From contig NZ_BLXY01000006.1 in the NCBI RefSeq assembly GCF_014193585.1, positions 62,001 to 126,000 on the forward strand: a stretch of 64,000 nt of DNA. Direction: 5' to 3'. This document shows positions 3,530-53,737 of the stretch, in pieces. A program made the translations under genes and the position numbers. Each line of letters begins with the position of its first letter. The first letter of the stretch is position 1. The notes under the pieces were generated by a model that ran no database searches, was not told the DNA's origin, and worked only from the letters and a program-made list of their open reading frames with translations. This DNA comes from Geomonas paludis. GTDB taxonomy: Bacteria > Desulfobacterota > Desulfuromonadia > Geobacterales > Geobacteraceae.

Positions 3530-3650
3530 GGTACTCCCTCAGGTAGGAAAAACTGGAACTGTCCAGTCATACTATCGGCACCATGACTGAAATCCTGAGG
3601 ACTGATATTGGGGGGGGAGCGGGTGATTGAATCGACAGGGGGAAAAGATG

Positions 3651-3677
3651 GTGGAGGGCGCAACCGCCGCCCTCCAC
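3651..3677 (-). terminator. Hairpin downstream of hcp
   Basis: A perfect 10-bp stem (GTGGAGGGCG and CGCCCTCCAC) with a 7-nt loop lies 18 bp past the hcp stop codon. On the minus strand it is followed by a short T-containing stretch rather than a clear T-run, so intrinsic termination is likely but not certain. Confidence 0.55.
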
Positions 3678-3695
3678 TGTCTCAGCAAGGAAGGA

Positions 3696-5351: not shown

Positions 5352-5369
5352 GTATGCCTCCTTGAAAGG

Positions 5370-5383
5370 TTGGAATTTTCCAA
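5370..5383. promoter_or_regulatory. Inverted repeat in the hcp leader
   Basis: TTGGAA-TT-TTCCAA lies 19 bp upstream of the hcp start codon, just before the Shine-Dalgarno. It could be an operator or a small mRNA hairpin. It does not match the HcpR or NsrR consensus that I know, so the regulator is unknown. Confidence 0.3.
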
Positions 5384-5443
5384 TCAGGAGAGTTTGTCAG
5401 ATCCGGAACAGTTTTCAACCTGTGGCAGCGTCGACCGGCCAAA

Positions 5444-29894: not shown

Positions 29895-30159
29895 GACACT
29901 ACACCCTCTTGTTCACGCAGCGACAAGGAGTCGCTACGCACACCTCGTCAGGTGGCTCAAAGGCCACGGTGGCGACAAACTTCCCCACATCCCGACGCAC
30001 AGGCACATCGCCCTGCAGCCAAAGTACGCGGTGGTGCAATGACCCGCCGTATTTCTACTTGCGCACAATTGTCGGATGGTAGTACGCTCGACTGCGACTG
30101 CAATGTCGCAGCTCAGCCGGTATCTTTTGCTCCACCTGCCCCAGGAGGACCAGCCCCTT

Positions 30160-31872
30160 TTGATTTTCCTGCAGTACGTAAAACGTGTCGTCCTCTCCTG
30201 CGCGCACCGGTCACTGCCGGTCCTTGTGCTGCTGACGTTGTGCACCCTCGTGCCCTGCTCCACCTGGGCCGCAGGGAGGGGGACCATCGTCGTCGGCGGC
30301 GACCACAACTATCCCCCTTACGAATTCCTCGACAAGAACGGTCACCCGGCCGGGTTCAACGTCGACCTGACCCGCGCCATCGCAGAGGTGATGGGAATGA
30401 CGGTGGAGATCCGCCTGGGGCGCTGGGAGGAGATCCGCAAGGCGCTGCAGAGGGGCGAGGTGGACATCGTCCAGGGGATGGTCCAGGCGGAGGTGCGGGC
30501 CAGGGACTACGACTTCTCGCCGCCGCACTCGATCATCAACCAGTCGGTCTTCGCCCGCCGCGGCGCCAGGACGGTGCAGACCCTGGGCGACCTCAAGGGG
30601 AAAGAGGTCTTCGTGCAAAACGGCGGCATGATGCACGACTACCTCCTGGAAAAGAACGTGGGAGCCGCCATCTTCCCCGTCGACACCCACATCGACGCGC
30701 TGCGCCAGCTCGCCGCCGGCAAGCACGACTACGCCCTGGTCGGCAACCTCCCCGGACTCTACCTGAGCCGCGAGTTCGGCCTCTCCAACATCGTGCCGGT
30801 AGGGAAACTGTTCGCCGGTCAACCGTATTGCTATGCCGTCAAAAAAGGCAACGACCAGATCCTGTCCCAGTTCAGCGAAGGGCTCGCCATCCTGAAAAAC
30901 ACCGGGCGCTACCAGAAGATCCACGACAAGTGGCTGGGCGCGCTGGAGCCCCCGGCCGTCTCCTGGCGCAAGATCCTCACCTACGCGGCCATCACCGCCC
31001 TGCCCCTGTTGCTTATGCTGAGCGCCATCGGCTACATCAACCGCAGGCTTGCCAAGGAAGTTGCGCTGCGCACCGAGGAGATGCAGTTGCAGCAACAGCA
31101 ACTGATCCAGGCGGACAAGATGGCGTCGCTCGGGGTCCTGGTCTCCGGCATCGCCCATGAGATCAACAACCCGACCGGGCTTTTGCTCTACAACCTGCCG
31201 GTATTGAAGAAGATCTTCCGCTCGACCGAAGAGCACCTGGAACAGCGCTTCCAAAAGGAAGGCGATTTCATGATCGGCGGGCTGCGCTACTCCCAGTTTC
31301 GCGAGGACATCCCGCTGCTCATCGACGAGATGCAGGACGGCGCGACCAGGATCAAGCGCATCGTCGAGGACCTGAAGGACTTCGCCCGCAAGGACACCTC
31401 GCAGATGGACCAGTCGGTGCTCCTGAACGACGTGGTCCGGGCCGCGCTCAGGCTAGTAGAAAACCCGATCCGCAAGACCACCGGCAACGTGGTCACCGAA
31501 CTCGCCGACGGTCTGCCCGCCTTTCGAGGCAACGCGCAGCGGATCGAACAGGTGGTGGTGAACCTGATCCTCAACGCCTGCCAGGCGCTCCCCGACCCGG
31601 GCAAGGGGATCTTCCTCACCACGAGCTTCGACGCCGAGCGCAACGAGGTGCTCCTGGTGGTCCGGGACGAAGGGGTCGGCATCGCCGGCGAGGACCTGCC
31701 GCGTATCGCGGACCCGTTCTTCACCACCAAGCGCGAGGTAGGCGGCACCGGGCTCGGCCTGTCGGTATCCGCCTCCATCATCAAGGAACACCAGGGAACC
31801 ATGGTTTTCGAGTCACAGCCGGGCGAGGGAACCACGGTGCGGGTGGCGCTGCCCGCCCTGCAAGGAGCATGA
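30160..31872 (+). CDS. Sensor histidine kinase with periplasmic solute-binding (SBP_bac_3) domain
   Basis: A signal/anchor helix (VLVLLTLCTLVPCSTWAAG) is followed by a complete family 3 solute-binding domain (about residues 45-270: GGDHNYPPYEFLDKNGHPAG, FNVDLTRAIAEVMG), one TM (about 280-298) and a transmitter with phosphoacceptor H333 in SGIAHEINNP. The N-box (NLILNACQAL), G1 (DEGVGIAGEDL) and G2 (GGTGLGLSV) are intact. It presumably detects a periplasmic small molecule and phosphorylates the regulator encoded by the next, overlapping gene. The nearby DctA-type transporter suggests a C4-dicarboxylate or amino acid signal. The start is uncertain: TTG at 30160 has AGGAGG 11 bases upstream, while ATGs at 30076 and 30103 lack ribosome sites. 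Confidence 0.88.
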   Translation: MIFLQYVKRVVLSCAHRSLPVLVLLTLCTLVPCSTWAAGRGTIVVGGDHNYPPYEFLDKNGHPAGFNVDLTRAIAEVMGMTVEIRLGRWEEIRKALQRGEVDIVQGMVQAEVRARDYDFSPPHSIINQSVFARRGARTVQTLGDLKGKEVFVQNGGMMHDYLLEKNVGAAIFPVDTHIDALRQLAAGKHDYALVGNLPGLYLSREFGLSNIVPVGKLFAGQPYCYAVKKGNDQILSQFSEGLAILKNTGRYQKIHDKWLGALEPPAVSWRKILTYAAITALPLLLMLSAIGYINRRLAKEVALRTEEMQLQQQQLIQADKMASLGVLVSGIAHEINNPTGLLLYNLPVLKKIFRSTEEHLEQRFQKEGDFMIGGLRYSQFREDIPLLIDEMQDGATRIKRIVEDLKDFARKDTSQMDQSVLLNDVVRAALRLVENPIRKTTGNVVTELADGLPAFRGNAQRIEQVVVNLILNACQALPDPGKGIFLTTSFDAERNEVLLVVRDEGVGIAGEDLPRIADPFFTTKREVGGTGLGLSVSASIIKEHQGTMVFESQPGEGTTVRVALPALQGA

Positions 31873-33296
31873 CCATGATCGATTCACTCACCCCGGACTT
31901 CGAGATCCTCCTGGTGGACGACGAGGAGGCGTGGCTGCGCAGCATCAGCATGACCCTGGCCATGTCCGGAGGCATCAATAACGTGGTGCGCTGCTCCGAC
32001 AGCAGAAAGGTCCCGGAACTGCTCCGCTCCCGCCCTATCGGCCTGGTCCTTTTGGACCTGAACATGCCCAACCTTTCCGGACAGGACCTCCTCCCCGCCA
32101 TCATCGAAGAGCACCCCGAGGTGCCGGTCATCGTGCTGAGCGGGCTGAACCAGGTTTCCGTCGCCGTGGAGTGCATGCAGAAGGGGGCCTTCGACTTCTT
32201 CGTGAAGACCGTCGAGGAGGAGCGCCTGATCCAGGGGATCCACCGCGCCATCCGTATGATCGACCTGCAGCGGGAAAACCGCGAGATGAAATCGCGCATC
32301 CTCAGCGACCGGCTGGAAAACGCAGAAGCATTTGCCGACATCCTCACCGCGGACCGGGCCATGCTCTCCATCTTCCGCTACATCGAGGCGGTGGCCGGCA
32401 GCAGCCAGCCCATCCTGATCACCGGCGAAAGCGGGGTCGGCAAGGAACTGGTGGCGCGGGCGGTGCACAAGGTGAGCCGGCGTCCCGGACAGCTGGTCTC
32501 GGTGAACGTGGCGGGACTGGACGACCAGATCTTCAGCGACACCCTCTTCGGCCACACCAGGGGCGCCTTCACCGGCGCGGAGTTGCCGCGTAGCGGCATG
32601 ATCGAACGGGCGGCGGACGGGACGCTGTTCCTGGACGAGATCGGCGACCTGGCCATCACGTCACAGGTGAAACTTTTGCGCCTGTTGCAGGAGGGGGAGT
32701 ACTTTTCCCTCGGCAGCGACGTCCCCAAACGGATGAACGCGCGCGTCGTCGTCGCCACCCATCACGACCTGGCTGCCAAGCAGGCCGCCGGCGAGTTCCG
32801 CAAGGATTTCTACTACCGCCTGTGCGGGCACCACATCCACATCCCGGCCCTGCGCGAGCGCCCCGACGACATCCCGCTCCTCTTCGACCACTTCCTGGAG
32901 GAGGCCGCCCGCGAGCTCAAGAAGAAGAAACCGACCGTCCCCAAGGAGCTGCCGGTGCTGCTGACCAACTATTCCTTCCCCGGCAACGTGCGCGAACTGC
33001 GGGCGCTGGTGTACGACGCCATGAGCCGGCACGAGGCGCACATGCTCTCCATGGAAACGTTCAAGAGGGTGCTGGGCAAGGACCAGAACCGCCCGGTGCG
33101 GCTCAACGAGCAGGGGGAGCGCAGCGTCTTCGTCCCCAGCGAGCCCCTCCCTCCCCTGCACGAGGTTGCCGACCTCCTGGTTGCCGAGGCGATGCGCCGG
33201 GCCGGGGGTAACCAGTCCATCGCCTGCCGACTGATCGGCGTGTCGCAACCGGCACTCAGTAAACGCCTGAAAAAGACAGGGGATTCTGCACCGTAA
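31869..33296 (+). CDS. Sigma54-dependent response regulator (REC-AAA-Fis), DctD/NtrC type
   Basis: This 475-residue regulator has a receiver domain with acidic pocket D17/D18 and phosphoacceptor D63 (LLDLNMPN), followed by an AAA+ domain with Walker A GESGVGKE, the sigma54-contacting GAFTGA loop (HTRGAFTGAE), Walker B LFLDEIGDL and the NVRELR segment. A C-terminal Fis-type helix-turn-helix (NQSIACRLIGVSQPALSKRL) follows. Its ATG overlaps the kinase stop by four bases, so the pair is translationally coupled. An intact GAFTGA predicts that it activates sigma54 promoters. The obvious target is the promoter at 33560, upstream of the transporter gene. Confidence 0.93.
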   Translation: MTMIDSLTPDFEILLVDDEEAWLRSISMTLAMSGGINNVVRCSDSRKVPELLRSRPIGLVLLDLNMPNLSGQDLLPAIIEEHPEVPVIVLSGLNQVSVAVECMQKGAFDFFVKTVEEERLIQGIHRAIRMIDLQRENREMKSRILSDRLENAEAFADILTADRAMLSIFRYIEAVAGSSQPILITGESGVGKELVARAVHKVSRRPGQLVSVNVAGLDDQIFSDTLFGHTRGAFTGAELPRSGMIERAADGTLFLDEIGDLAITSQVKLLRLLQEGEYFSLGSDVPKRMNARVVVATHHDLAAKQAAGEFRKDFYYRLCGHHIHIPALRERPDDIPLLFDHFLEEAARELKKKKPTVPKELPVLLTNYSFPGNVRELRALVYDAMSRHEAHMLSMETFKRVLGKDQNRPVRLNEQGERSVFVPSEPLPPLHEVADLLVAEAMRRAGGNQSIACRLIGVSQPALSKRLKKTGDSAP

Positions 33297-33575: not shown

Positions 33576-33669
33576 TATGTGCGGGGTACTGCAGGATGTA
33601 GAAAACTATTTTATGGGAAGCTGTGAAATTGGGGACAACGATGCAATTCAACCTGAAGGAGAGTGCGGC

Positions 33670-34959
33670 ATGAAAAAGAACAAACTGACCCTCTACATCC
33701 TGGTGGCGATGATTCTCGGAATCGTCGTCGGCTACTTCTGTAACCTCAATGCGCCGGACGCCAAGGCGGCCAAGGTCATTGCAGGCTACTTCGACATCAT
33801 CTCGTCGGTCTTTCTGCGCCTGATCAAGATGATCATCGCGCCGCTGGTGTTTGGCACCATCGTCTCCGGCATCGCGGGCAACGGCGACTCCAAGGCCATC
33901 GGCCGGATCGGCATCCGTGCCATGGGCTGGTTCCTGTGTGCCTCGGTGATCTCGCTCGCGCTGGGCATGGTGTTCGTCAACCTGTTCCAGCCCGGCGTCG
34001 GCACCTCGCTCCCGGCCCCGGTAGCCGGCGCCACCACCAACCTCAACGTCGCCGCCCTCAACTTCAAGGACTTCGTCACCAACATCTTCCCGACCAGCTT
34101 CCTCGATGCCATGGCGAAGAACTCGATCCTGCAGATCCTGATCTTCTCCGTTTTCTTCGGGTTCGCGATCGCCTCGTTCAAAGACGACGCCACCAGGACC
34201 GTGGTCGCCTTCGTCAAGGAACTGGTGCACATCATGCTGAAGGTGACCGACTACGTCATGCAATTCGCCCCGGTGGGCGTCTTCGCCGCCATGGCATCCT
34301 GCATCACCGTGCAGGGGCTCGGCGTGCTGACCACCTACGGCAAGTTCATCGGCAGCTTCTACATCGGCTTGATCGTGCTCTGGGCCGTACTGATCGGCGC
34401 CGGCTACCTGTTCCTGCGTAACTCCACCTGGACCCTGCTCAAGCTGATCCGCGAGCCGATGCTGATCGCCTTCTCCACCGCGAGCAGCGAGGCCGCCTAC
34501 CCGCAGACCCTCGAATCCCTGGAGCGCTTCGGCGTGAAGGAGAAAGTGTCGGGCTTCGTGCTGCCGCTGGGCTACTCCTTCAACCTGGACGGCTCCATGA
34601 TGTACCAGGCCTTCGCCGTCATCTTCATCGCCCAGGTCTACAACATCGAGCTTTCCATCTCCAAGCAGATCGCCCTGCTCCTGGTGATGATGCTGACCAG
34701 CAAAGGGATGGCCGGCGTGGCGCGCGCCTCGCTCGTCGTCGTCGCCGCCACCCTCCCCATGTTCAACCTTCCCGAGGCGGGCCTTTTGCTCATCATGGGT
34801 ATCGACCAGTTCCTCGACATGGGCCGCACCGCGACCAACGTGATTGGCAACTCCATCGCCACCGCAGTGGTAGCCAAGTGGGAAGGAGACCTGGGGGCTG
34901 AGCCGGAAGTGGAGGAGGACGAAGAGCTGGTCCTCGCCGCGGTGCCGGTGCAGGATTAG
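33670..34959 (+). CDS. dctA: Dicarboxylate/amino acid:cation symporter, DctA type
   Basis: This 429-residue DAACS-family transporter has eight or more membrane helices and the two re-entrant loops. The serine-rich loop reads STASSEAAYPQTLESLERFG, the cation site SFNLDGSMMYQAF, and the substrate-specificity helix DMGRTATNVIGNSIATAVVAKW. The GNxxATxVVAKW ending is closer to DctA than to glutamate carriers, so C4-dicarboxylate uptake (fumarate, succinate, malate) is the best guess. The acidic C-terminal tail (EVEEDEELV) is unusual. AAGGAG precedes the ATG at 33670. It is controlled by a sigma54 promoter and a two-component system upstream. Confidence 0.85.
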   Translation: MKKNKLTLYILVAMILGIVVGYFCNLNAPDAKAAKVIAGYFDIISSVFLRLIKMIIAPLVFGTIVSGIAGNGDSKAIGRIGIRAMGWFLCASVISLALGMVFVNLFQPGVGTSLPAPVAGATTNLNVAALNFKDFVTNIFPTSFLDAMAKNSILQILIFSVFFGFAIASFKDDATRTVVAFVKELVHIMLKVTDYVMQFAPVGVFAAMASCITVQGLGVLTTYGKFIGSFYIGLIVLWAVLIGAGYLFLRNSTWTLLKLIREPMLIAFSTASSEAAYPQTLESLERFGVKEKVSGFVLPLGYSFNLDGSMMYQAFAVIFIAQVYNIELSISKQIALLLVMMLTSKGMAGVARASLVVVAATLPMFNLPEAGLLLIMGIDQFLDMGRTATNVIGNSIATAVVAKWEGDLGAEPEVEEDEELVLAAVPVQD

Positions 34960-35055: not shown

Positions 35056-38000
35056 CTAGCGGCTGGAAGCGAGGACGCCCCTGATCCGGTCCAGTTCGGC
35101 CTGTGCCAGCCGGCAGGCCAGCGAGGCCTGCAACTCGTCCATTTCCGCCCGTTTCAGTGCGGCGACGGCTTCGGCATGCTTCGCCGCGGTCACGGTGCCG
35201 GCCTTCAGGCGGTTGTCGCTCAGGCGCGCGTTTTCCCGGCGCAGGGAGAGCGCCTCGCGCGCCACCTCCACCATCTGTTGGGAGCGCTCCAGCTTGCGCA
35301 GCGCCTTGTCGATGTCGATGCCGATCCGTTTGTCGATCCGCGCCAGGTTCTCTTCAGCCTGGGACCGCTGGGCCGCACGCTGCTCTATGTCGGCCTTTCG
35401 TTTGCCCCAGTCGAAGATGTTCCAGGTGAGCTCCGCCCCGACGATCCCTACGTTTCTTTCCAGGAACGGGGCGCCGTCCTGGTAGCCGTGCCTGGCGTAG
35501 ATGGTCAGGTCGGGGATGTACTCGTAGCCGGCGGCACGCACCGCGTGGCGCGATTTCTCCAGGGTTTGGCGCGCGGCGAGCATTTCGCCGTTGCCGGAGC
35601 GCGCCTCCTCGTAGGCCTGTTCCTTCACCGGTTTTGTCAGCTCGGGAAGCCCGGCCTCGGTGACCTCGACCGTGGTGTCGCTGGGCAGCCCCAAGAGGTC
35701 GCACAACTCCGAGGTCACATCGGCGGCACGGTTGTCGGCGACCAGGAGCGCCTGCCGGTTCTGCAGCAGATCCGCCCGTGCCGCGGTCAGCGCCACCTCC
35801 AGCACGTTGCCCGCCTTCACCCCCTCCTCTGCCTCGCGCAGGTTTTCCTGCGCCGCGTCCAGCGAGGCCTGGGCGGCGGTGCGCTCCTTGTCGGCCACGA
35901 GCAGCGCGTAGTACAGCTCGTGCACGGCAAAGACGGTTTCGTTTTCGGACTTGGACAGTTCCGCCTTGGCGATGCCGCGCTCCGCCTTGGCGATGTCGCT
36001 GGCCGCCCCGATCTTGAACAGCTGCGTGATCGGCTGCGCCAGGGTGGTCTCGCTGTACAACACGGTGGACTTGCTCTGGCTGAGCTTCACCTCCCTGTTG
36101 GGGAACTGCTCGCCTCCCGCGCCGCCGAGACTCCCCGCCGGGATGGAGATCTGCTGCTTGTCGGACAGGCTCATGAACTTCGTGTTGTTGGTGAGCTGCG
36201 GGAAGTACTGGGACCGTACCGACGTGATCCTGTGGTCGGTCTCGGCGACTTTGTCCCGGCCCATTTTGAGGACCGAGTTCTGCTTGAGGGCGAGCTCGAC
36301 CGCCTGTGACAGCGTCAGGGACTGCCGCACCGGCTCCGCGCTTGCCTCCCTCCCCCCCGCGAGCAGCACCAGCCCCACCAGCGCTGCGGCCACGACTCCC
36401 TCTTGCACCGAGGCGCGCCGGGCTACCCGTGACTTCACCGCCACGTAGATCACCGGGACCACCAGGAGCGTGAAGAACATGGAGAAGATGAGACCGAAGG
36501 CGATGACGCTCGCCAGCGGGCTCCACAGGCTCGACCGGGACAGGATCATGGGGGTGACGCCGACGGCCGCCGCCATGGTGGTGAGGAAGATGGGACGCAG
36601 ACGCCTGGCCCCCGCCTCACGCGCCGCCTGCTCCAGGCTTACCCCCTCGGCCACCCTCTCGTTGCAGTAGTCGACCAGGATGATCCCGTTTCTGACCACG
36701 ATGCCGCACAGGCTGATGAGCCCCATGAACGCGGTGAAGCCGAAGGGGTTGTGGGTGATCACCAGTCCGAGGATGGCCCCGAACAGGGTGAGCGGAATGG
36801 AGGCCATCACCACCAGCGGATCGGAGACGTTCCTGAACTGCACCAAAAGCACCAGGAAGATCGCCACCAGGCTGATGCCGAGCGCCACCAGCATTTGCGG
36901 GAAGGTCTCGTCCTGGTTGTCCTTCTCGCCGCCGTAGTAGATCCGGTATCCGGTGGGCAGCTCCAGGGCCTTGATGCGCGGCATCGCCTGCTCCAGGATG
37001 TCGGAGGCGTACACGCCAGTTTTCGGGAAGGCCCGGATGGTCAGCGTGTGCACGCCGTTTCTACGCACGATCCTGCCGGTTTGCCACTCGGGCGCCAGCG
37101 TGGCGACCGCGCGCAGCGGCACCCGGGCCCGGGTCAGGTCGGAATTGAGATAGGTGTTGCCGATGTCCGAGAAGGAGGAACGGGAGGCCGGGTCGAGCCT
37201 GAGTTTGATGTCGACGGCGCGGTCTCCTTCCCAGAAGGTGCTGACGGCGGCGCCGTCGAACGCGCCGGCCAGCGTCTGCGACACGCCTGCGTCGGTGAGC
37301 CCGAGACGGTTCGCCAGCTCGTCGTTCACCTTCACGTCCACCAGGTAGGAGTCGTTGAAGTAGTCCCTGAACACGTACTGGGTGTTGGGTATCCCCTCCA
37401 GGATCGCCTGCACCTGCTCACCGAGCCGCTTCAGTTCGGCGATGTCGTCGCCTGCGATGCGCACCTCGATGGGGGCCTCCATCTGGGATCCCTGCTGCAG
37501 CTCCTTGACGATCACCATCGCCTCCGGCGCCACCTTGGCCAGGGCCGGACGGAGCTCCTGCACCAGCCGGCTGGTGTCCTCCACCGAGGCGGTGTTGACG
37601 ATGAACTGTCCGTAGGCCCCGTCAGGCTGCTGCGGATTGACGTTGTAGTAAAACCTCGGCGCGCTCTGCCCCACGAAGGTAGCGTAGTGGGCGACACCTT
37701 TGCTTTTGGCCAAGGCCTTCTCGATCCGTCCCATCACCGCGTCGGTCGCCTCGATGCGCGTCCCCTGGGGCATCCAGACGTCGACCACGAACTGGTTGCG
37801 CTCCGCCGACGGAAAGAACTGCTGCGGCACCACCGCGAAGAGGGCTACGCCGAAGACGAAGGCGCAGCCGCCCAGTGCGAAGGCAAGCCATTTCCGGTTC
37901 ATGAAGGTGCCGATCCAAATGCCGTACTTGTCCTGGAGCAGATCGAGCAGACTCTTCTTTTCCTTTTTGTGATCGTGCGCCGCATCGTGGTCGTGCAGCC

Positions 38001-39480
38001 CCTTCTTGATGAAGAACCGGCACAAAAGCGGGGTCAGGAACACCGCCACGATGAAGGAAACGGCCAGGGCGATGGCCACGGTAAGCGGCAGCGCCATGAT
38101 GAACTCGCCCACCGACCCGGTCAGGATCAGCAAAGGGAGAAACGAGGCGATGATGGTGATGGTGGCGGTGAGTACCGGCACCAGGACGTCGCTGGCGCAG
38201 CGCCACGCCGCCTCGGCTTTGGGGACCTTGTGATCCAAAAGCTCGACGAAGTTGTCCGCGATGACGATGGCGTCGTCCACCACGATACCAAGCACCATGA
38301 TGAGGCCTGCGATGGAAACCTGGTGCAGTGCGATGCCGAAGGCGTTCATGACACCGAGGGTGCCGCACAGGGTGACCGGAATGGCGAGGGCGGCGATGAG
38401 GGCGACCCTGAGGGGGAGCAGCACGATGGTCACCAGGACCACGGAAACGATGGCGAGCAGGAATTCGTGGCTCAGCTTCTCGGTGCGGTCCTTGACCACC
38501 TCGGGCTGGTTGGCGACCAGGTCCAGTTTCACATCGGGCGGGAGGAGCACCTTGAGGCGCTGGAACACGGTATCGAGCCGATCACCCAGTTCCACGATGT
38601 TCTTCCCTTTCTGCATCTCCACCGAGAGCAAGAGACAGGGGTCGCCGTCGTAGCGCACCATGAAGGTCGGGTCCTGGTAGCGCCGCTCCACGGTCGCGAA
38701 GTCCTTGATGTAGAGAGGATGGCCGTCCTTCGAGACGTCGACCAGCACGTTGCGGATGTCTTCCTCGGTGTTGAAGATCCCGGTGGTCCTCATGGGGGAC
38801 TTGGATCGCTCGGCCTCGAAATGTCCCCCGCTCTGGATGACGTTGCGCTCCCTGAGCGCGTTCACGATCTGACGCGGGTCCGCGAAGTACTGGGCCACCC
38901 GCTCCAGGCTCCCGCTGATCCGGACCTCTTCGGACTGGTTGCCGTAGGTCACCAGCTTGCCCACTTCCCGGACCGTACGCATCTCGTCGTGGATCTTGTC
39001 GGCGTAGTCCCTGAGCTCGCGGTAGCCGTACCTCTTGCCGTGGACCGCCACCAGCATGGCCACCGTGTCGCCGAAGTCGGAATCGACCACCGGCCCCATC
39101 ACCCCGGCGGGGAGTTCGGTCGTGCGCACCAGGTTCATCTCGTGGCGCAGCTTGGCCCAGAACTGGTCCGAGTTCTTCACGCTGTCCTCGAGTTCCACGT
39201 TGATGATGGCAACGCCGGGGCGGCTCGTGGAATAGGTCTTCTCCTTGCGGACCTCGGGGAACTTGAAGATGTGTTTTTCCAGGGTCTTGGTCACCTGTTT
39301 TTCCACCTGCTCGGAGGTCGCGCCGGGATACATGGCGGCCACGAGCCCGGTCCTGATGGTAATGGTCGGGTCCTCGGTGCGCTGCATCTTCAGGAAGGCA
39401 TGGATGCCTATGAATACGACCATGGCCGTCAGGATGAGGGTGACCGGGGGATAGCGAAGGGAAAACTTTATCGGTGTCAT
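35056..39480 (-). CDS. RND efflux pump fused to a TolC-family outer membrane factor
   Basis: This single 1,474-residue frame comprises two proteins. Residues 1-1025 are a complete RND permease with 12 TM helices, two large periplasmic porter regions and the TM4 proton-relay acidic pair in GLIMVLGIVVDDAIVIADN. The TM10 position that is Lys in AcrB appears as Arg (GIVVRNGIILVDY). Residues about 1026-1048 form a hydrophobic stretch (VVAAALVGLVLLAGGREASA) that looks like a signal peptide with an AxA cleavage site. Residues 1049-1474 are a TolC-like factor with coiled-coil helices (LTLSQAVELALKQNSVLKMG onward). No stop or frameshift separates the halves. It would need internal cleavage so the TolC part can reach the outer membrane. 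The membrane fusion partner lies 24 bp upstream. Confidence 0.9.
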   Translation of the reverse strand: MTPIKFSLRYPPVTLILTAMVVFIGIHAFLKMQRTEDPTITIRTGLVAAMYPGATSEQVEKQVTKTLEKHIFKFPEVRKEKTYSTSRPGVAIINVELEDSVKNSDQFWAKLRHEMNLVRTTELPAGVMGPVVDSDFGDTVAMLVAVHGKRYGYRELRDYADKIHDEMRTVREVGKLVTYGNQSEEVRISGSLERVAQYFADPRQIVNALRERNVIQSGGHFEAERSKSPMRTTGIFNTEEDIRNVLVDVSKDGHPLYIKDFATVERRYQDPTFMVRYDGDPCLLLSVEMQKGKNIVELGDRLDTVFQRLKVLLPPDVKLDLVANQPEVVKDRTEKLSHEFLLAIVSVVLVTIVLLPLRVALIAALAIPVTLCGTLGVMNAFGIALHQVSIAGLIMVLGIVVDDAIVIADNFVELLDHKVPKAEAAWRCASDVLVPVLTATITIIASFLPLLILTGSVGEFIMALPLTVAIALAVSFIVAVFLTPLLCRFFIKKGLHDHDAAHDHKKEKKSLLDLLQDKYGIWIGTFMNRKWLAFALGGCAFVFGVALFAVVPQQFFPSAERNQFVVDVWMPQGTRIEATDAVMGRIEKALAKSKGVAHYATFVGQSAPRFYYNVNPQQPDGAYGQFIVNTASVEDTSRLVQELRPALAKVAPEAMVIVKELQQGSQMEAPIEVRIAGDDIAELKRLGEQVQAILEGIPNTQYVFRDYFNDSYLVDVKVNDELANRLGLTDAGVSQTLAGAFDGAAVSTFWEGDRAVDIKLRLDPASRSSFSDIGNTYLNSDLTRARVPLRAVATLAPEWQTGRIVRRNGVHTLTIRAFPKTGVYASDILEQAMPRIKALELPTGYRIYYGGEKDNQDETFPQMLVALGISLVAIFLVLLVQFRNVSDPLVVMASIPLTLFGAILGLVITHNPFGFTAFMGLISLCGIVVRNGIILVDYCNERVAEGVSLEQAAREAGARRLRPIFLTTMAAAVGVTPMILSRSSLWSPLASVIAFGLIFSMFFTLLVVPVIYVAVKSRVARRASVQEGVVAAALVGLVLLAGGREASAEPVRQSLTLSQAVELALKQNSVLKMGRDKVAETDHRITSVRSQYFPQLTNNTKFMSLSDKQQISIPAGSLGGAGGEQFPNREVKLSQSKSTVLYSETTLAQPITQLFKIGAASDIAKAERGIAKAELSKSENETVFAVHELYYALLVADKERTAAQASLDAAQENLREAEEGVKAGNVLEVALTAARADLLQNRQALLVADNRAADVTSELCDLLGLPSDTTVEVTEAGLPELTKPVKEQAYEEARSGNGEMLAARQTLEKSRHAVRAAGYEYIPDLTIYARHGYQDGAPFLERNVGIVGAELTWNIFDWGKRKADIEQRAAQRSQAEENLARIDKRIGIDIDKALRKLERSQQMVEVAREALSLRRENARLSDNRLKAGTVTAAKHAEAVAALKRAEMDELQASLACRLAQAELDRIRGVLASSR

Positions 39481-39504: not shown

Positions 39505-40731
39505 CTACTTCCGGCTTGCCTGTTCCGTTGCCGACACGACCGCGCCGTTTCTCAGCTTCGCCTGTCCGGCCAGGACGATGAGCTCGTTGCCGTCCAGCCC
39601 GCTCTTTATCTCGATGTCCTTGTTGACCGCCGCACCGATCTCCACGCGCTTGGTGTAGACGCGCTTCTGGTCCGGGTAGTAGACATACACCTGCGTCGCA
39701 CCCTGCGGGTCGCGCACCACCGCGTCTCCGGGGAGCGTCACCATGGACACGGTCCGGTCGCCGCGTATCGTTGCCTCCGACACCATCCCCACCCTGAGGG
39801 CATGCTCCGGGTTGGGGACGCTGATCCTGGTCATGTAGGTGCGGGTATTGGAGTCCGCGGAGACGTTGATGACACGCACCGTCCCCTGGAAGGACTTGCC
39901 CGGCAGGGCCGGTACGGTGATGTCGGCCTTCTGGCCGATGCTGACCAGGTGCACGTCGGTCTCCGGCACGCCCACGCTCACCTCGACCGGGTCCATGCGC
40001 ACCATCTCGAAGACGGGACGCCCGGCCGCGGCGGTGTCGCCCGGTTCCACGGCACGCTTGGCAATGTACCCGTCCATCGGTGCGTACAGGGTCGCATCGC
40101 CGAGCGCCTTTTTGGCGACGTCGAGGCGGGCCGCCGCCTGGCTGTACCCTGCCCTCGCCAGGGCCTTGTCCTCCTTCTGGCCGCCGGCCTTGGCCTGGTC
40201 GTACTCCTGTCCGGCGTGCTCGTAGGCCGCCTTGTACTTCTGGAAGTCGTTAGGCGCGAGGCTCTTGGAGTCGTAGAGCATCTTCATGCGCCGGTACTCG
40301 TCCTCGGCCCGCTCATACGCGATGCGCGCCTGCTCCAGATGCTCCGGCCGCACCGAATTCGTCGCCTTTTCCAGTGCAGCCTCCGTGCTGGCCAGTTGGG
40401 CGGCGGCGCCTTTGAGGGAGAGGTTGAAATCGGTGGGATCGATCCTGGCCAGGACCTGCCCCTTCTTGACGAACTCCCCCTCCCGCGGCCCCACGAAGAC
40501 CACCTTCCCGGAAACCAGGAAGGAGAGGCTCGCCGGTGCATTAGGGGTGGCGACCGTCCCGCTCACCGAGATGGTCTCGCGCTCCTGGACCTTCTGGACC
40601 CGCCCCACCACCACCGGCACGGCATCCCCTTTGGCTTCCTTGCTGTGTTGCTCACCACTGCATGCCGCCAGCGAAATTCCCACTGCCGTCAGGCAAACGA
40701 CCTTCACAGCGGTCTCAAATCTAACTTTCAT
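39505..40731 (-). CDS. RND membrane fusion protein (periplasmic adaptor lipoprotein)
   Basis: This 408-residue HlyD/AcrA-type adaptor has a lipoprotein signal (VCLTAVGISLAAC, lipobox LAAC), a split lipoyl domain (SGKVVFVGPREGEFVKKGQV and APMDGYIAKRAVEPGD), a long alpha-hairpin between them and a beta-barrel plus membrane-proximal region to the C-terminus. It would bridge the RND pump and its outer membrane factor, which here are one polypeptide encoded 24 bp downstream. The start at 40731 follows AAGGAG. An earlier ATG (40764) has no ribosome site. It is the middle gene of a three-gene operon. Confidence 0.93.
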   Translation of the reverse strand: MKVRFETAVKVVCLTAVGISLAACSGEQHSKEAKGDAVPVVVGRVQKVQERETISVSGTVATPNAPASLSFLVSGKVVFVGPREGEFVKKGQVLARIDPTDFNLSLKGAAAQLASTEAALEKATNSVRPEHLEQARIAYERAEDEYRRMKMLYDSKSLAPNDFQKYKAAYEHAGQEYDQAKAGGQKEDKALARAGYSQAAARLDVAKKALGDATLYAPMDGYIAKRAVEPGDTAAAGRPVFEMVRMDPVEVSVGVPETDVHLVSIGQKADITVPALPGKSFQGTVRVINVSADSNTRTYMTRISVPNPEHALRVGMVSEATIRGDRTVSMVTLPGDAVVRDPQGATQVYVYYPDQKRVYTKRVEIGAAVNKDIEIKSGLDGNELIVLAGQAKLRNGAVVSATEQASRK

Positions 40732-40773
40732 CGTGATGCTCCTTTTCCTTGTTATATTCGTCATCGTTGACGG

Positions 40774-41403
40774 TCAGAAAGTGCGGGCCAGTCCCAGCAG
40801 TTTGCTCCGGACGGTTTCGTATTCCTCCCAGGAGCCGGTTTCCGGGTCGTCTCCCTTGAGCAGGACCGTTTCCTGATGCGCCACACCGAGCACGTTAAGG
40901 ACCGAGCGTAGGTAGGCAACGCTCTGGTCGCGCTCCCCGGCCAGGCTGTACGCCGTAGCGGCGTGCAAGTGCAGGGATTTCCTGGGGAGGCCGCGCAGCA
41001 TCCCTTCGCTGCCGTTAGGTGTGAGCCGGTAGGTACGGTCGAGTACGCAGGTCGCATCCACGTACATCTTGAACTCGGCCGGCAGCCACAGGTTAAGGCT
41101 GTGGGTGACGAAGACATACTTGTCACACCTGAGAAACTGGTCCGCCATGCGCCAGATACGGTTGATCTTGTGCCGCTCTTCGTCCGAGAGCAGCGCGTGG
41201 TCCTCACCGCGCTCGACACGCGTCCAGGCGTTGAGGACGTCCTGGTCGACGCGCTGGATGCTGTCGCGGTACACATCGAGCACCTGGACTTCATCCCGCG
41301 GGTTCAGGCGCAGGTATTCCTCCAGGAACTCGGAGCCGAGCAGAAGGCTGCGCGATGCGGCCTCGGCTTTTACGTTAGCGGTGACATAGAGAATGGTGGC
41401 CAT
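40774..41403 (-). CDS. azoR: FMN-dependent NADH:quinone oxidoreductase / azoreductase family
   Basis: This 209-residue flavodoxin-like protein has the AzoR N-terminal signature ILYVTANVKAEAASRSLLLG and the HSLNLWLPAEFKMYVD segment near the FMN-binding site. The family reduces quinones and azo compounds with NAD(P)H via FMN. The start at 41403 (MATILYVTANV) follows AAAGGATT. It is the first gene of the efflux operon and has its own sigma54 promoter at 41441-41457, suggesting that reduction and export of a toxic aromatic or quinone are coupled. The substrate is inference. Confidence 0.82.
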   Translation of the reverse strand: MATILYVTANVKAEAASRSLLLGSEFLEEYLRLNPRDEVQVLDVYRDSIQRVDQDVLNAWTRVERGEDHALLSDEERHKINRIWRMADQFLRCDKYVFVTHSLNLWLPAEFKMYVDATCVLDRTYRLTPNGSEGMLRGLPRKSLHLHAATAYSLAGERDQSVAYLRSVLNVLGVAHQETVLLKGDDPETGSWEEYETVRSKLLGLARTF

Positions 41404-41440: not shown

Positions 41441-41457
41441 TAGCGACGACCATGCCA
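41441..41457 (-). promoter_or_regulatory. Sigma54 promoter of the azoR-RND operon
   Basis: On the minus strand CTGGCATGGTCGTCGCTA has GG and GC ten bases apart, with two departures from consensus. It lies about 40 bp before the azoR start and faces away from the divergent sigma54 activator gene. Confidence 0.6.
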
Positions 41458-41633: not shown

Positions 41634-43193
41634 ATGAGCAGCAGCGACGAGTTCATCAAAGAGATAACCCTAAGAATCTGCAGCAGCCTCGATATCAATG
41701 AGTCTATGAGCAGCGCATTCGACTACCTGAGACACCAGGTCCCGGTGGACCTGCTCACCCTGTTCATCCTCGACGAGCGGCTGGGAGCGGTAAGGCGCAT
41801 AGCCAACGCCTTCGAGAACAGTTGCCATGTAACCGTACCGGAAGAGATCCTGCCGCTTCCTGAAGGGCTGCTGGAAAAGGTCGCGGCTCGCAATTTCTCG
41901 GCACCGTTCATCGTGGACCCCGAACATGACGAGATCTTCCGAGCCTTGGCCCCGGTAATGAATTACAAAGGTATTACCGACCTTATGGTCCCCTTGAGGA
42001 TCAGGGGGGAACTACTGGGCGGGTTGGTCCTGCGCGCGGGGGGGGAAGGGAGATACACGGCGGAGCAGGTCGAGCTGATAGGTGGGATCGCCAAGCCGTT
42101 CGCAATAGCGCTGGCCAACGCCCTCGCCCACGAGGAAGTGCTGCGCTTCCAGGCGGTACTGCTGGACGACAAGCGCTTCCTGAACCGTGAACTGTACGGC
42201 AGCGCCGCGGAAGATATCATCGGAGCGAACACCGGGCTGCGCAACGTGATGGAGATGGTGCGCCAGGTGGCGCCGCTCAACAACACGGTGCTGCTCCTCG
42301 GCGAAACCGGGACCGGCAAGGAACTGATAGCCAATGCCATCCACTTTTCATCGCCGCGCAAGCAAGGGCCGTTCATAAAAGTGAACTGCGGCGCGCTCCC
42401 CGACAGCCTCATCGACAGCGAACTGTTCGGTCACGAGCGGGGAGCGTTTACGGGAGCCCTTGCCGAGAGTAGGGGGAGATTCGAGCGTGCCGACGGTGGA
42501 ACCATTTTCCTGGACGAGATCGGCGAGCTGCCGCCGTCGGCCCAGGTGCGTCTGTTGCGGGTGCTGCAAAACCACGAGGTGGAGCGGGTCGGCGGCAAGC
42601 GGGCCATCCCCGTCAACATCAGGGTCATTGCTGCCACGCACCGTAACCTGCAGAGCATGATGACGGAAGGGACCTTCCGCGAGGACCTGTGGTACCGGCT
42701 GAGCGGGTTTCCCATCATCGTGCCGCCGGTGCGACAGCGCAAAGAGGATATTCCCGCCCTGACCCGCCATTTCCTGGCTGTGAAAAGCAGGGAGTTCGGA
42801 ATGTCCATCCCCCCCTCGGTGGCGCCCGGGGCGCTGCTGCGGCTCATGGAATACGATTGGCCCGGCAACGTCCGCGAGCTGGAAAACCTGGTGGAACGCG
42901 AGTTGATCCGGCATCAGGGAGGGCCGCTGGCGTTTGACCTGATCGGCCCCAACCAGACAGGAGAGGCAAAGACAGTTGCCGCCGGCAACGCAGCGCCCTC
43001 CCCTCCTTCGACACTGGACCAGGCGATGTCCGCCCACATCATCGAAGCCATGAAAGCCGCCAACGGGAAGATCCACGGTCCCGGCGGCGCCGCCGAGCTG
43101 CTCGGGATGAACCCGAACACCCTGCGCTGGCGGCTCGACAAGCTGGGCATCAGCTACCGCCGCCGCGAGCGAGGAAGGAGTACCGGTAAATAG
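41634..43193 (+). CDS. Sigma54-dependent activator with GAF sensor domain
   Basis: This 519-residue enhancer-binding protein of the NorR/FhlA type has an N-terminal GAF domain (about 20-165), an AAA+ domain with Walker A GETGTGKE, an intact GAFTGA (ERGAFTGAL) and Walker B IFLDEIGEL, the WPGNVRELENL segment, and a C-terminal HTH (GPGGAAELLGMNPNTLRWRL). There is no receiver domain, so a ligand bound by GAF probably controls it directly. It is divergent from the azoR-efflux operon, which has a sigma54 promoter, making that operon its likely target. The ATG at 41634 has a GAGGAAAG site. An ATG at 41586 is an alternative. Confidence 0.9.
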   Translation: MSSSDEFIKEITLRICSSLDINESMSSAFDYLRHQVPVDLLTLFILDERLGAVRRIANAFENSCHVTVPEEILPLPEGLLEKVAARNFSAPFIVDPEHDEIFRALAPVMNYKGITDLMVPLRIRGELLGGLVLRAGGEGRYTAEQVELIGGIAKPFAIALANALAHEEVLRFQAVLLDDKRFLNRELYGSAAEDIIGANTGLRNVMEMVRQVAPLNNTVLLLGETGTGKELIANAIHFSSPRKQGPFIKVNCGALPDSLIDSELFGHERGAFTGALAESRGRFERADGGTIFLDEIGELPPSAQVRLLRVLQNHEVERVGGKRAIPVNIRVIAATHRNLQSMMTEGTFREDLWYRLSGFPIIVPPVRQRKEDIPALTRHFLAVKSREFGMSIPPSVAPGALLRLMEYDWPGNVRELENLVERELIRHQGGPLAFDLIGPNQTGEAKTVAAGNAAPSPPSTLDQAMSAHIIEAMKAANGKIHGPGGAAELLGMNPNTLRWRLDKLGISYRRRERGRSTGK

Positions 43194-43263: not shown

Positions 43264-43635
43264 TCGTCACAACAAACAGGAAAACCTTTGCTGCAACCCT
43301 CTTTTACAAGTGACGGTACCTTCTTTTCTTGTGGTAGCACTTTCATATCATTAAGATGTAGTGATGGGGTTCCTGATCAATAATGTTACAGAGACAGTTA
43401 CAATTGACCGCGGTTGTGATGCCCACTGTGCAGTCAGAAGGTGGCCTAGAATCAGGAGGTAGCGTGACAATTCACCTTCCACCTTGCATGGCCCTGCCCA
43501 TCGAAATTACTTGTCTTTTACTTCAGTACCCCTGAGAATGTCGCGGCGGCATGGCGTCGCCCTGGCGGGCAGGACATGCCGCTAAATGGCACGCCACGTA
43601 CAAACCAAGACGGGCATCACCCAGGAGATATACGC
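43264..43635. other. Intergenic region upstream of the WD40-caspase gene
   Basis: There are 370 bp without a credible gene. The first 200 bp are relatively AT-rich and could hold a promoter, but I cannot place one reliably. AGGAG lies before the downstream start codon. Confidence 0.4.
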
Positions 43636-46600
43636 ATGACTATCAGTTCGCCTCTGAGTCACACGCTCAACGCGCCGAGGTCGATCCATCGGCTGACCCG
43701 TGCTGCCGGGTGGATGGTACTAGTGCTGCTGTCATATTTTTCCTGCTTCGGGCAGGTTGCGTGGGGAGCGGCAGAAACGGCCGAACCGGTCCTTGTCGAG
43801 AAACCGACGCCGAGGCTGGTGGTGCAGTCGGGCCACTCGAAATACGTCGCCGCGGTGGCTTTTTCGCCAGACGGTCGCACGATGGCATCGGGCAGCGACG
43901 ACATGTCCGTCAAACTTTGGGAAGTGGCGAGTGGCAGGGAATTGCGCACCCTTGTCGGGCATAAGGAGGCGGTGAAGAGCGTTGCCTTCTCTCCGGACGG
44001 CAAGACACTGGTGTCCGGCAGTGTCGACAAAACCGTCAAGCTCTGGGACGTGGCGACCGGCAGGGAGCTGCGCACCTTGTCAGGGCACGAACTTTTTGTG
44101 ACGAGTGTCGCCTTCTCTCCTGATGGCAGGACGGTTTTGTCCGGAAGCCGGGACAACACCCTCAAGCTCTGGGATGTTCCCAGCGGCAGGGAAGTGCAAA
44201 CGTTCGCCGGCCATGTCAATCCCGTCAGTTGCGTCGCATTTTCTCCGGACGGCAAGACCGTCGTGTCGGGGAGCTGGGATAACACCCTCAAACTCTGGGA
44301 CGTGGCCACAGGCCAGCAGCTACGGATATTCACCGGTCACGAAGACTGGGTAACGAGTGTCGCCTTTTCGCCCGACGGGAAGGTCATCGTTTCAGGCAGC
44401 CAGGACAAGCGGCTCAAATTTTGGGATGCCTCAACCGGACGGGAGCTACGCAGCATACTGCTTGAGGAGGAGGTAAAACAAGTTGCCTTCTCGCCAGATG
44501 GAATGACCCTTGTGTCGGCCAATGCACAAAGCCAGGAAAAGATTGCGCCTCTCAAGCTATGGGAGGCAGCTACGGGCCGGGAACTGCGCACCCTCGCCGT
44601 GCTGCGCGATTGTGAAGTGATGAACGCCGCATTCTCACCTGACGGCAAGTCGGTGCTGTCGGGTTGTTATCAGGGGCAGATCAAACTGTGGGGTGCCGAC
44701 TCCGGACAGGAAATCCGTACCTTCGCCGGATATGGGGGGGGCGTCAAAAGTGCCGCCTACTCAAGGGACGGCAAGTCCATCGTGGTCGGCAGCGAACGGT
44801 CAGGGGGGACAGGGCTCAAGCTCTGGGACTTGGCCACGGGGCAACAGCTGCGCTCCTTCACCGGACATGTGAACACGGTGACGAGCGTCAGCTTTTACCC
44901 CGACAGCAGCGCCGTTGTGTCAGCCGGCAGCGATGACAGGATCAAGTCCTGGGACATAGCCACTGGCATGGAACTACGCAACATCGAGATTTCAGGTCAT
45001 AATTCATCTTCTCTAAGAGGCGCAGCGTTGTCCCCTGATGGTCGTGTCCTGGCCTCCACAGGAAGAAGTTATGCCAACGCGGCGACCAATGGCAGTCATA
45101 TCAAGCTGTGGGATGCCGCTACCGGCGACGAATTGCGTACCTTGACCGGGCACGGGCAGTATGGCGACGACTTCGTCTCGGTGGCGTTTTCACCGGACGG
45201 ACTCACGCTGGCATCGGGCAGCAATGACAAAACGATAGAACTGTGGGACGTTGCCTCTGGCAAGGAACTGCGCATCCTCACCGGGCACAGCTCCACCGTA
45301 AACTGCGTCGCTTTCTCAACCGATGGGAAAACCCTGGTATCCGGAGACTCGGGCAACAAGCTCAGGTTCTGGGATGTCGCCACCGGCCAGGAATTGCCTG
45401 CCGGTTCAGTGTCCCAGCCGACTGCTTTTGTCAGCCACTGGGGCTCCACTGCGGGCGTGAACAGTATCGCGTTCTCCCCGGACGGCAGGATCGTCGTGTC
45501 AGGTAGCACGGACAGGACCATCACCGTCTGGGATCTCGCCACGCGCCGCAAGATCGGCACTTTCATCGGCCACGGGGACGTGGTGTCCACTGTCGCCTTC
45601 TCGCCCAACGGCAAGTTCGTGCTGTCCGGTAGCGAGGACAGGACCCTCAAGATCTGGGACGTCGCATCTGGCAGTCTGCTCGCTACCCTGGCCAGTTTCG
45701 CCGATGGCTCCTGGGTAGTGACTGATCCCGAAGGGCGTTTCGATACTGGCAATCTGGAAGAGCTGAAGGGGGTGCATTGGGTGATGCAGGACGATCCCTT
45801 GACGGCATTGCCGCTGGAAACCTTTATGAAGGATTACTACGAGCCAAGGCTCTTGACGCGCATCCTGAATGGCGAGAAGTTCAGCCCCGTGCGTGCCTTT
45901 GCCAACCTGAACCGTGTCCAGCCTGCCGTCAGGATTGTCAGCGTCACCCCGGACCGCAACGACCCCGAACGTGCGCTCGTCGAAGTTGAAGCAGTCGGCG
46001 CCAGCAGGGACTACCTCCGCGACGGCAACAAGGTTCCGGTTGCCGCGGCGGCCCACGACCTGCGCCTGTTCCGTGACGGCCAACTGGTAGGCGCTGCTGA
46101 CGGCCGGATATCCCGATACGGCGACAAGCCTTACCGCGGGACCTTCAGCGTGCGCCTGCCCAGCGCCATGAGCGGGAAGGAGATCACCTTATCGGCCTAT
46201 GCTTTCAACGAAGACCGGGTTAAGAGCGGCACGGTGCGCAGCCGTTACCGGGTCCCCGCCACTGTCGTTTCCCGCAGAGGGAATGCCTATCTCATCAGCA
46301 TGGGCGTCAACACCTTTGACAACCCGGCCTGGAACCTGCGTTTTGCCGCCAACGACGCGCGACTCATGCGCCAGGTACTGAGCGAGACTTTGCGCAAGAC
46401 GGCCGCTTATGAGCACATCGTCCCGCTTACCCTGATTTCGGACCAGGACGAACACCACGCCGACAAAGCGCTGCTGCACGCCGTCCTCGACAGGCTGGCA
46501 GGAAAGCCCGCCTCGCCGCTGCTCGAAATGCTTCCCGGTGCCGAACAACTGCGGCCCGCCACGCCGGACGATCTTGTAGTGCTCAGCTTCTCCGGCCATG

Positions 46601-47214
46601 GCTATGCCGATGGCAGCGGTGACTTTTACCTCCTCACCCCGGACACCGGCAAAGGCCAGGAGAAGAAGGTGGATGTCGACCTGCTCAAGCGCAGCATCTC
46701 CAGCGAAGAACTCTCGCAGTGGCTGCGGGATGTGGATGCCGGCGACATGACCATGATCGTGGATGCCTGCCAGTCCGCGGCGAGCGTGCAGGGAAAGGAC
46801 TTCAAGCCCGGCCCCATGGGGAGCAGAGGCCTTGGGCAGCTCTCCTTCGACAAGGGGATGCGTATCCTTGCGGCGAGTCAGGCCGACGAGTACGCCCTGG
46901 AGAACGACGCGATCAAACAAGGACTGCTCAGCTTCGCCCTGGTCATAAACGGTCTGGAGGGATTTGAAGCCGACCAGGCTCCCAAGGACGGCAAGATCAT
47001 GCTGGACGAATGGCTACGTTATGGCGTGAACCGGGTTCCCGGTCTTGCCGAGGAGGTCAAAGCGGGGAAGGTGCGGGTCTCAGCCCGGGGAGGCAACCGT
47101 GGCGTAGTCCGCATCAATAAGACAGGCGCCGGCGACCCGCGGCCGGCACAACAGCCGGCCCTGTTCGATTTCGCCAAAAACAGGCGCCAGGTTGAGCTTG
47201 CCCTGGAACCTTAA
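43636..47214 (+). CDS. Secreted WD40-repeat protein with C-terminal caspase-like (peptidase C14) domain
   Basis: In this 1,192-residue protein a signal peptide (WMVLVLLSYFSCFGQVAWGA, cleavage near residue 45) is followed by 14 WD40 repeats (VAFSPDGKTLVSGS, KLWDVATGRELRTL), enough for two seven-bladed propellers (about 65-700). A linker of about 200 residues (PEGRFDTGNL onward, then beta-rich) follows. Residues about 880-1150 are a caspase-fold domain with the catalytic dyad H988 (SFSGHGYADG) and C1045 (IVDACQSA), both present, so an active cysteine protease is expected. AGGAG precedes the ATG at 43636. It stands alone between two similar hairpins. Most bacterial WD40-caspase proteins are cytoplasmic, so an export signal is unusual. 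Confidence 0.9.
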   Translation: MTISSPLSHTLNAPRSIHRLTRAAGWMVLVLLSYFSCFGQVAWGAAETAEPVLVEKPTPRLVVQSGHSKYVAAVAFSPDGRTMASGSDDMSVKLWEVASGRELRTLVGHKEAVKSVAFSPDGKTLVSGSVDKTVKLWDVATGRELRTLSGHELFVTSVAFSPDGRTVLSGSRDNTLKLWDVPSGREVQTFAGHVNPVSCVAFSPDGKTVVSGSWDNTLKLWDVATGQQLRIFTGHEDWVTSVAFSPDGKVIVSGSQDKRLKFWDASTGRELRSILLEEEVKQVAFSPDGMTLVSANAQSQEKIAPLKLWEAATGRELRTLAVLRDCEVMNAAFSPDGKSVLSGCYQGQIKLWGADSGQEIRTFAGYGGGVKSAAYSRDGKSIVVGSERSGGTGLKLWDLATGQQLRSFTGHVNTVTSVSFYPDSSAVVSAGSDDRIKSWDIATGMELRNIEISGHNSSSLRGAALSPDGRVLASTGRSYANAATNGSHIKLWDAATGDELRTLTGHGQYGDDFVSVAFSPDGLTLASGSNDKTIELWDVASGKELRILTGHSSTVNCVAFSTDGKTLVSGDSGNKLRFWDVATGQELPAGSVSQPTAFVSHWGSTAGVNSIAFSPDGRIVVSGSTDRTITVWDLATRRKIGTFIGHGDVVSTVAFSPNGKFVLSGSEDRTLKIWDVASGSLLATLASFADGSWVVTDPEGRFDTGNLEELKGVHWVMQDDPLTALPLETFMKDYYEPRLLTRILNGEKFSPVRAFANLNRVQPAVRIVSVTPDRNDPERALVEVEAVGASRDYLRDGNKVPVAAAAHDLRLFRDGQLVGAADGRISRYGDKPYRGTFSVRLPSAMSGKEITLSAYAFNEDRVKSGTVRSRYRVPATVVSRRGNAYLISMGVNTFDNPAWNLRFAANDARLMRQVLSETLRKTAAYEHIVPLTLISDQDEHHADKALLHAVLDRLAGKPASPLLEMLPGAEQLRPATPDDLVVLSFSGHGYADGSGDFYLLTPDTGKGQEKKVDVDLLKRSISSEELSQWLRDVDAGDMTMIVDACQSAASVQGKDFKPGPMGSRGLGQLSFDKGMRILAASQADEYALENDAIKQGLLSFALVINGLEGFEADQAPKDGKIMLDEWLRYGVNRVPGLAEEVKAGKVRVSARGGNRGVVRINKTGAGDPRPAQQPALFDFAKNRRQVELALEP

Positions 47215-51748: not shown

Positions 51749-52381
51749 TCATTTTTGAGCATGTTTCAATTTCAATAGTTCAAAAAACTGTATTTCAGCT
51801 TGTTCTTGTTCTTCGACAGTGTCGGCAAACGCAACCTTCTTCGCCAAGGTCGACGACAAATTATTGACTGGCTTTCTGTTAGTAAATTTATAAAATCTAT
51901 ACAAATCACATGCAATTGCAGTATTTTTTCCTTCATCACTAATTGGCCTGTAAACAAGACCAGGAACTAGTATTTCAATATGGTCATTGTAGGAATGAAA
52001 ATGCGGATGCACTATGATGTAATCTTTAGGCTTGTTTGGAAAGGTTTTCCTGTTTGAATTTTTAAGTACATTTTTACCACTTTTAGGACCGTTACAATCT
52101 TTGCATGCAATACATAAATTTTGTGGTTCGAACATAAACTTTGGCTTCATGATCCTAGGTATGATATGTTCAATATCCCACGCCATATTGTGATCAATTT
52201 GTATTTTTTGTTGACAATATGGACATGTATAATTTTGAATTACCTTGTAGTACTCCTTTATTTCAGTTTTAATATCGGTGAATTTAGCATCACTCCAATC
52301 TTGAGGGGCTAACGGAGTCCCCTTACAAGCATCTAAAATATCAAGACTTTCTTTTGAATAGACAATAGGTGCTGGAATCAT
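51749..52381 (-). CDS. ptuB: HNH endonuclease, Septu PtuB-like
   Basis: This 210-residue protein has a zinc-supported HNH fold: CPYC (C53, C56), the EHIIPR segment with His72, NLC with N88, and a second zinc pair CIACKDC (C93, C96) followed by NGPKSGK. The start overlaps the stop of the ATPase gene upstream by four bases. An AAA ATPase followed by a small HNH nuclease is the defining arrangement of the Septu antiphage system, in which PtuA-type ATPase complexes hold the PtuB nuclease. The low GC content supports transfer. The assignment rests on motif and gene order, so a related ATPase-HNH pair outside Septu is possible. Confidence 0.8.
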   Translation of the reverse strand: MIPAPIVYSKESLDILDACKGTPLAPQDWSDAKFTDIKTEIKEYYKVIQNYTCPYCQQKIQIDHNMAWDIEHIIPRIMKPKFMFEPQNLCIACKDCNGPKSGKNVLKNSNRKTFPNKPKDYIIVHPHFHSYNDHIEILVPGLVYRPISDEGKNTAIACDLYRFYKFTNRKPVNNLSSTLAKKVAFADTVEEQEQAEIQFFELLKLKHAQK

Positions 52382-53685: not shown

Positions 53686-53737
53686 TTATAACCTCTTAAA
53701 TAAAAATATAATGCACATCATTTAACACCACAGTATC

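Follow-up and report, generated by a model that had tools for sequence, protein, structure and literature searches.

How could a single polypeptide supply components to two different membranes? The question is raised by a gene in a stretch of 64,000 nucleotides from Geomonas paludis (genome 5.1 Mb; assembly GCF_014193585.1, contig NZ_BLXY01000006.1, positions 62,001 to 126,000), hereafter the window, within which positions are counted from its first letter. The gene occupies 35056-39480 on the minus strand, begins with the ATG at 39480 and runs for 1474 codons with no stop inside, encoding a resistance-nodulation-cell division (RND) permease followed in frame by a TolC-type outer membrane factor (OMF). 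To judge from the features of the segment that joins the halves, the product is very probably a polyprotein precursor of an RND tripartite pump, which would be cut by signal peptidase I after A1048, the adaptor being encoded separately.

A permease and an outer membrane factor in one frame

An initial sequence-only reading had proposed that one frame of 1,474 codons carries a full RND permease and a full OMF, and the domain matches within the stop-free open reading frame (ORF) bear this out. The permease domain, residues 4-1015 (36436-39471, minus), is a full-length match to Pfam ACR_tran (E 1.3e-194, 649 bits). It is followed by a linker, residues 1016-1048 (36337-36435, minus), and by the predicted mature OMF, residues 1049-1474 (35059-36336, minus), where Pfam OEP matches in two stretches (E 1e-40, 140 bits, the best at 1287-1465). 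An AlphaFold2 model of residues 1016-1474, built from 36 rows, contains a full OMF with a mean predicted local distance difference test score (pLDDT) of 85 and its first strand at 1052-1055; the top Foldseek matches of this model are TolC entries, with template modelling (TM) scores of 0.71-0.74. Two OEP repeats and a complete alpha/beta barrel fold are thus common to the window OMF and to TolC and OprM. The difference lies in the position of the leader, which in the window protein is internal, whereas TolC and OprM each have a precursor of their own, with the signal peptide at the N-terminus.

By sequence, the nearest solved structures to the RND half are 6vej (titled as a probable RND efflux transporter, probably TriC) and MexK (9xwg, 20yy). 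The RND half aligns with them end to end, but these are single permeases of 1022-1031 residues to which no OMF is attached. An aspartate pair lies at residues 402-403, and the lysine position reads arginine (GIVVRNG, from 926), as it also does in L073 and L075 (L numbers denote fetched loci); these positions would correspond to the proton-relay residues D407/D408 and K940 of AcrB. The window protein scores below the NCBIfam RND_permease subfamily cut-off (545.6 versus 1250 bits), and by that score its RND half is a divergent subfamily. Further full-length RND ORFs retrieved from the same genome (L002-L006) carry no OMF. Each half belongs to a known family, an adaptor gene is present in the operon, and the whole should act as tripartite pumps usually do. 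The unusual part is the precursor, with halves of a single polyprotein destined for two membranes.

The linker as a predicted internal signal peptide

Along the family the order is the same: the conserved last RND helix, a basic segment (KSRVARR in the window), a hydrophobic stretch (core approximately 1030-1042), an A-x-A motif (A-S-A in the window) and then the OMF. Because RND permeases end in the cytoplasm, a basic segment followed by a hydrophobic stretch would be expected to export whatever lies downstream. In an alignment of 36 linkers (the window and 35 named loci), position -1 (residue 1048) is alanine in 33, position -3 (1046) is alanine or valine in 33, and position +1 (1049) is glutamate in 27. 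Identity to the window averages 54% over residues 1016-1020, 10% over the variable-length stretch 1021-1029, 36% over the core 1030-1042, 78% over 1046-1048 and 60% over the OMF. The possibility of a lipoprotein OMF was considered and ruled out, cysteine occurring at +1 in none of the 36 linkers. A home-made rule asks for a hydrophobic 10-mer followed by small residues at -3 and -1. Each of the 77 distinct fused linkers has such a site, and in 56 it is A-x-A; the corresponding rates are 33% and 7% for shuffled linkers, and 2.9% and 0.6% for 990 segments from OMF halves. Distant fusions likewise satisfy this rule, and the host genome has two matches above cut-off to Peptidase_S26, the signal peptidase I family. 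By these sequence features the linker looks like an OMF leader that has been kept internally, and the earlier suggestion of a signal-peptide-like hydrophobic junction with an ASA-E site at 1048/1049 gains support from the conservation of A-x-A|E.

On this basis the permease would insert into the inner membrane, leaving its C-terminus on the cytoplasmic side, and the hydrophobic stretch that follows would re-engage the translocon as an internal signal sequence, directing the OMF to the periplasm. Cleavage after A1048 by signal peptidase I would release the OMF, which would travel to the outer membrane and trimerise, and the separate adaptor would then link it to the permease. A formal precedent is FbcH of Bradyrhizobium, a cytochrome b/c1 precursor in which a multi-span membrane protein is followed by an internal leader and an exported partner; there the partner stays at the inner membrane, and the proteins are unrelated to RND and OMF. 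The literature search turned up no paper on this precedent.

Several observations weigh against this reading. In the alignment, 3 of the 36 rows lack alanine at -1 and 3 have neither alanine nor valine at -3. The rule is untrained and permissive, accepting a third of shuffled linkers, and its best site precedes the aligned A-x-A in some rows (e.g., L050, L065 and L029). Many rows are closely related, so that the counts are not independent. In the structure model the leader helix (1024-1040) sits in a low-confidence tail. Finally, the system is patchy, 4 of 19 sampled genomes of the window's own genus carrying the fusion.

The sequence-only reading had allowed for two outcomes, processing by signal peptidase or a new trans-envelope architecture, and the conserved features of a cleavable leader strongly favour the first. 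Were the chain left uncut, the pump would be a single chain in which the OMF is tethered through a 13th transmembrane helix. The hydrophobic stretch could indeed serve as a membrane anchor, and cleavage is here read from the sequence; yet A-x-A|E is retained while the hydrophobic core drifts, and the linker looks too short for an OMF inserted in the outer membrane. Some 11 residues separate the end of the leader helix (1040) from the first OMF strand (1052), which would span approximately 40 Å at most. In a study of MexAB-OprM, by comparison, RND and OMF are described as having no direct contact, with a density of approximately 6 nm between them (PMC4754349). A tethered OMF would hardly reach the outer membrane, and an uncut pump is improbable.

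Slightly less probable still is that the gene gives two translation products, the OMF being made from an internal start in the linker, whether or not the fused chain is made too. The window has a GTG at residue 1030 with a GAGG motif upstream, and 67 of 72 fused genes have some start codon in the scanned stretch, which is no surprise in a sequence rich in valine, leucine and methionine. A start combined with a Shine-Dalgarno-like motif is nevertheless rarer in the fused linkers (5/72, the window among the five) than in control windows (15.2% of 1152), which argues that internal initiation is not conserved, and a product starting at residue 1030 would have no basic n-region.

Processing of a single precursor by signal peptidase I would yield equal amounts of RND and OMF, which the pump uses 1:1; with the adaptor the ratio is 3:6:3, a stoichiometry given as likely for MexAB-OprM in that study (PMC4754349). 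A tentative extension is that the fusion is an assembly device that has been selected several times independently, one chain cut on export both fixing the 1:1 ratio and placing the channel beside its own pump. Should this be so, such pumps would be dedicated machines rather than sharers of a common TolC, and cutting may even be a timed step in assembly.

Distribution and probable repeated origin of the fusion

The fusion is a recurrent arrangement that is not unique to this genome. At 60% RND identity or more there are 56 distinct sequences that cover the junction, counting that of the window, and 55 of them are fused; in the 56th (L061) the contig ends 40 residues past the RND domain, in frame and already inside the OMF start. 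Genomes of the same family give stop-free matches over the whole query at 95, 91, 91, 84, 84, 83, 82 and 81% identity, and the closest named relatives of the window protein are from Geomonas, at 91%. The junction (36435-36337) falls within 36300-36460, the stretch that the sequence-only reading had proposed to re-sequence, and stop-free matches to the full query in independent genomes rule out a frameshift or an overlooked stop. A sequencing or assembly error, or a decayed gene, can accordingly be dismissed: nothing was found in its favour, both halves are intact and conserved, and the fused sequences just counted come from independent genomes. Nor are the homologues always two genes, as that reading had also considered; the fusion was found in many related genomes, across several phyla.

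Record titles or taxonomy lines place fusions in Desulfobacterota, Nitrospirota, Acidobacteriota, Gemmatimonadota and Bacteroidota. Named records fused over at least approximately 1-1465 include those from Geomonas, Trichlorobacter, Oryzomonas, Candidatus Manganitrophus and two further Nitrospirae bins, together with bins titled Desulfarculales, Syntrophobacterales, Bryobacterales and Holophagaceae; many of the named fusion records are metagenome bins. A family sample of 48 genomes, including that of the window, has 16 with this fusion, 3 with an unfused RND match only and 2 with a different, distant fusion. At E 1e-150, 29 of 141 genomes in an order sample match, all with frames that cross the junction, though a few are cut by contig ends, and 16 of 395 genomes match in a thin phylum sample, 8 fused and 8 unfused. 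Searching plasmid records at the protein level gave 576 that matched. Of the five best, which were inspected, two from Gemmatirosa and two from Persicobacter are fused, and the one from Parabacteroides has separate genes.

With decreasing RND identity to the window, the junction-covering sequences comprise 2 fused and 2 separate at 50-60%, 2 and 6 at 40-50%, 1 (L080) and 10 (including L186) at 35-40%, where L080 and L186 are partial RND frames, and 18 and 63 below 35%. These counts are of distinct sequences with plasmid records left out, and as the query spanned RND and OMF alike and several of the distant fused loci were added deliberately, the shares below 60% are biased frequencies. Fusions were counted solely from stop-to-stop ORFs, frame-length estimates being able to run past stops between genes in the same frame; L212, L214 and L219/L150, with apparent frames of 1489-1538, were rejected for this reason as separate genes with stops between them. 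L069 was left out of the count, its match ending at residue 521, far before the junction. Of 79 distinct fused ORFs, 75 hit an OMF model built from the family, and the other four (L080, L141, L211 and L213) have Pfam OEP. Two variants of length were seen in passing. L215 (ORF 942-5822, minus; an Acidobacteria bin) has 1627 residues with RND and three OEP stretches, approximately 130 residues longer than other fusions, and L184, L185, L189-L191, L194-L196 and L199, from a sample centred on an Acidobacteria genome, are RND permeases of approximately 1200-1250 residues with an extra stretch within the RND domain.

The relatives with separate genes suggest how the fusion arose. In all 13 near relatives of this kind the OMF ORF is downstream of RND, and in 12 it is directly next and has a leader-like start (seen only in part for L150); in the exception, L147, another gene lies between the two. 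The OMF starts 2 bases past the RND stop in L075, and stop and start overlap by 4 bases in L149, L177 and L178. L145 and L150/L219, like the more distant L212 and L214, keep RND and OMF in one reading frame with stops in between. The leader-like OMF starts imply that the fused linker corresponds to a former N-terminal OMF leader, and the fusion may have originated from adjacent or overlapping RND and OMF genes by loss of the intervening stop.

This seems to have happened more than once. On a 69-row RND tree (FastTree; loci chosen by hand, long branches flagged) the fused state requires 7 changes, each imposed by well-supported branches, and on a quick IQ-TREE of the near clade (37 rows) it needs 2. 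A single fused clade is rejected on the latter by the approximately unbiased (AU) test (p 5.3e-5) and again when plasmid records are added (3 changes needed; AU p 0.0016), and joining the smaller fused groups L106/L107 and L222/L223, a grouping chosen after seeing the tree, is likewise rejected (p 2.2e-4). A single origin of the fused state was thus discarded, and since the fused pumps are not one clade, fusion or splitting has occurred repeatedly. The tree counts are unrooted and do not distinguish gain from loss; gains are favoured, because the linker still has the make-up of a leader and RND and OMF ordinarily have a gene each. Another, distantly related RND-OMF fusion, 26% identical and likewise leader-like in its linker, occurs in two genomes of the window's genus (L029 and L030). 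Fusions of the CusA/CzcA family (L141, L211 and L213; L080 is a fragment), from the genomes of two named Bacteroidota loci, have the same ACR_tran and OEP architecture and a leader-like linker. They score above the TIGR00914 cut-off (1178-1209 bits), but their RND half is only 24-25% identical to that of the window and is distant in the tree, which by sequence makes them a separate fusion event.

The literature search found no description of an RND-OMF fusion, most subscription papers being outside its reach. In the available part of one published account, outer-membrane pore proteins are said to be fused only rarely to other domains, and no RND case is named there (PMC4827864). One fusion is already public as a single coding sequence, WP_338399011.1 from Persicobacter, named only as a permease subunit; the channel was overlooked in what amounts to an annotation gap. 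If the proposed processing is correct, this would be a natural polyprotein whose halves end in different membranes and which apparently evolved repeatedly. It would make subunit ratio and cognate pairing in tripartite pumps testable, and offer a simple system for studying bacterial internal signal sequences.

Operon, regulation and neighbouring genes

The periplasmic adaptor (a membrane fusion protein of HlyD/CusB type; RND_mfp, E 8e-65) is encoded at 39505-40764 (minus), 24 bases before the fusion ATG, confirming that it is a separate gene just upstream; its sequence has a lipobox-like LAAC motif. The first gene of the operon, at 40774-41403 (minus), encodes a flavodoxin-fold reductase (Flavodoxin_2), presumably azoreductase-like. 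Upstream of the operon, at 41442-41457 (minus), looser scoring picks out a sigma-54-type -24/-12 element, TGGCATG-N4-TCGCT, judged by the -24/-12 consensus; a strict sigma-54 pattern gave no match around the operon. A divergent sigma-54 activator at 41634-43193 (plus; Sigma54_activat passes its cut-off, GAF_2 and HTH_8 narrowly miss theirs) is the likely regulator.

Reductase, adaptor and fusion follow in that order in 17 named loci, 16 of which have an opposite-strand sigma-54 activator upstream, not always adjacent. No reductase was found in farther relatives (e.g., L047, L049, L053 and L067), where adaptor and fusion are still together. Of 20 loci scored, the window among them, 19 have an element like TGGCAC(G/A)-N4-TCGCT upstream of the reductase at a comparable distance, with scores that shuffled versions of the stretch seldom or never reach; the exception, L057, shows only a weaker match in another place. 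The conserved gene order and the -24/-12 element suggest an inducible detoxification operon. Its substrates might be, as the reductase hints, redox-active or aromatic toxicants that this enzyme also handles.

Elsewhere in the window, a histidine kinase with an SBP_bac_3 solute-binding sensor and a sigma-54 response regulator are encoded at 30076-33296 (plus), adjoined by a dicarboxylate symporter at 33577-34959. A protein of 1212 residues at 43576-47214 (plus) has ten WD40 stretches, and its C-terminal part appears caspase-like by eye. A low-GC island at 51749-56769 (minus; 36-42% GC) comprises two adjoining defence modules by PADLOC models, a Septu-like PtuA/PtuB pair (51749-53685) and a Hachiman-like HamA/HamB pair (53738-56769), and at its edge the gene at 58440-59567 (plus) matches the SoFic (Fic-type) defence model.

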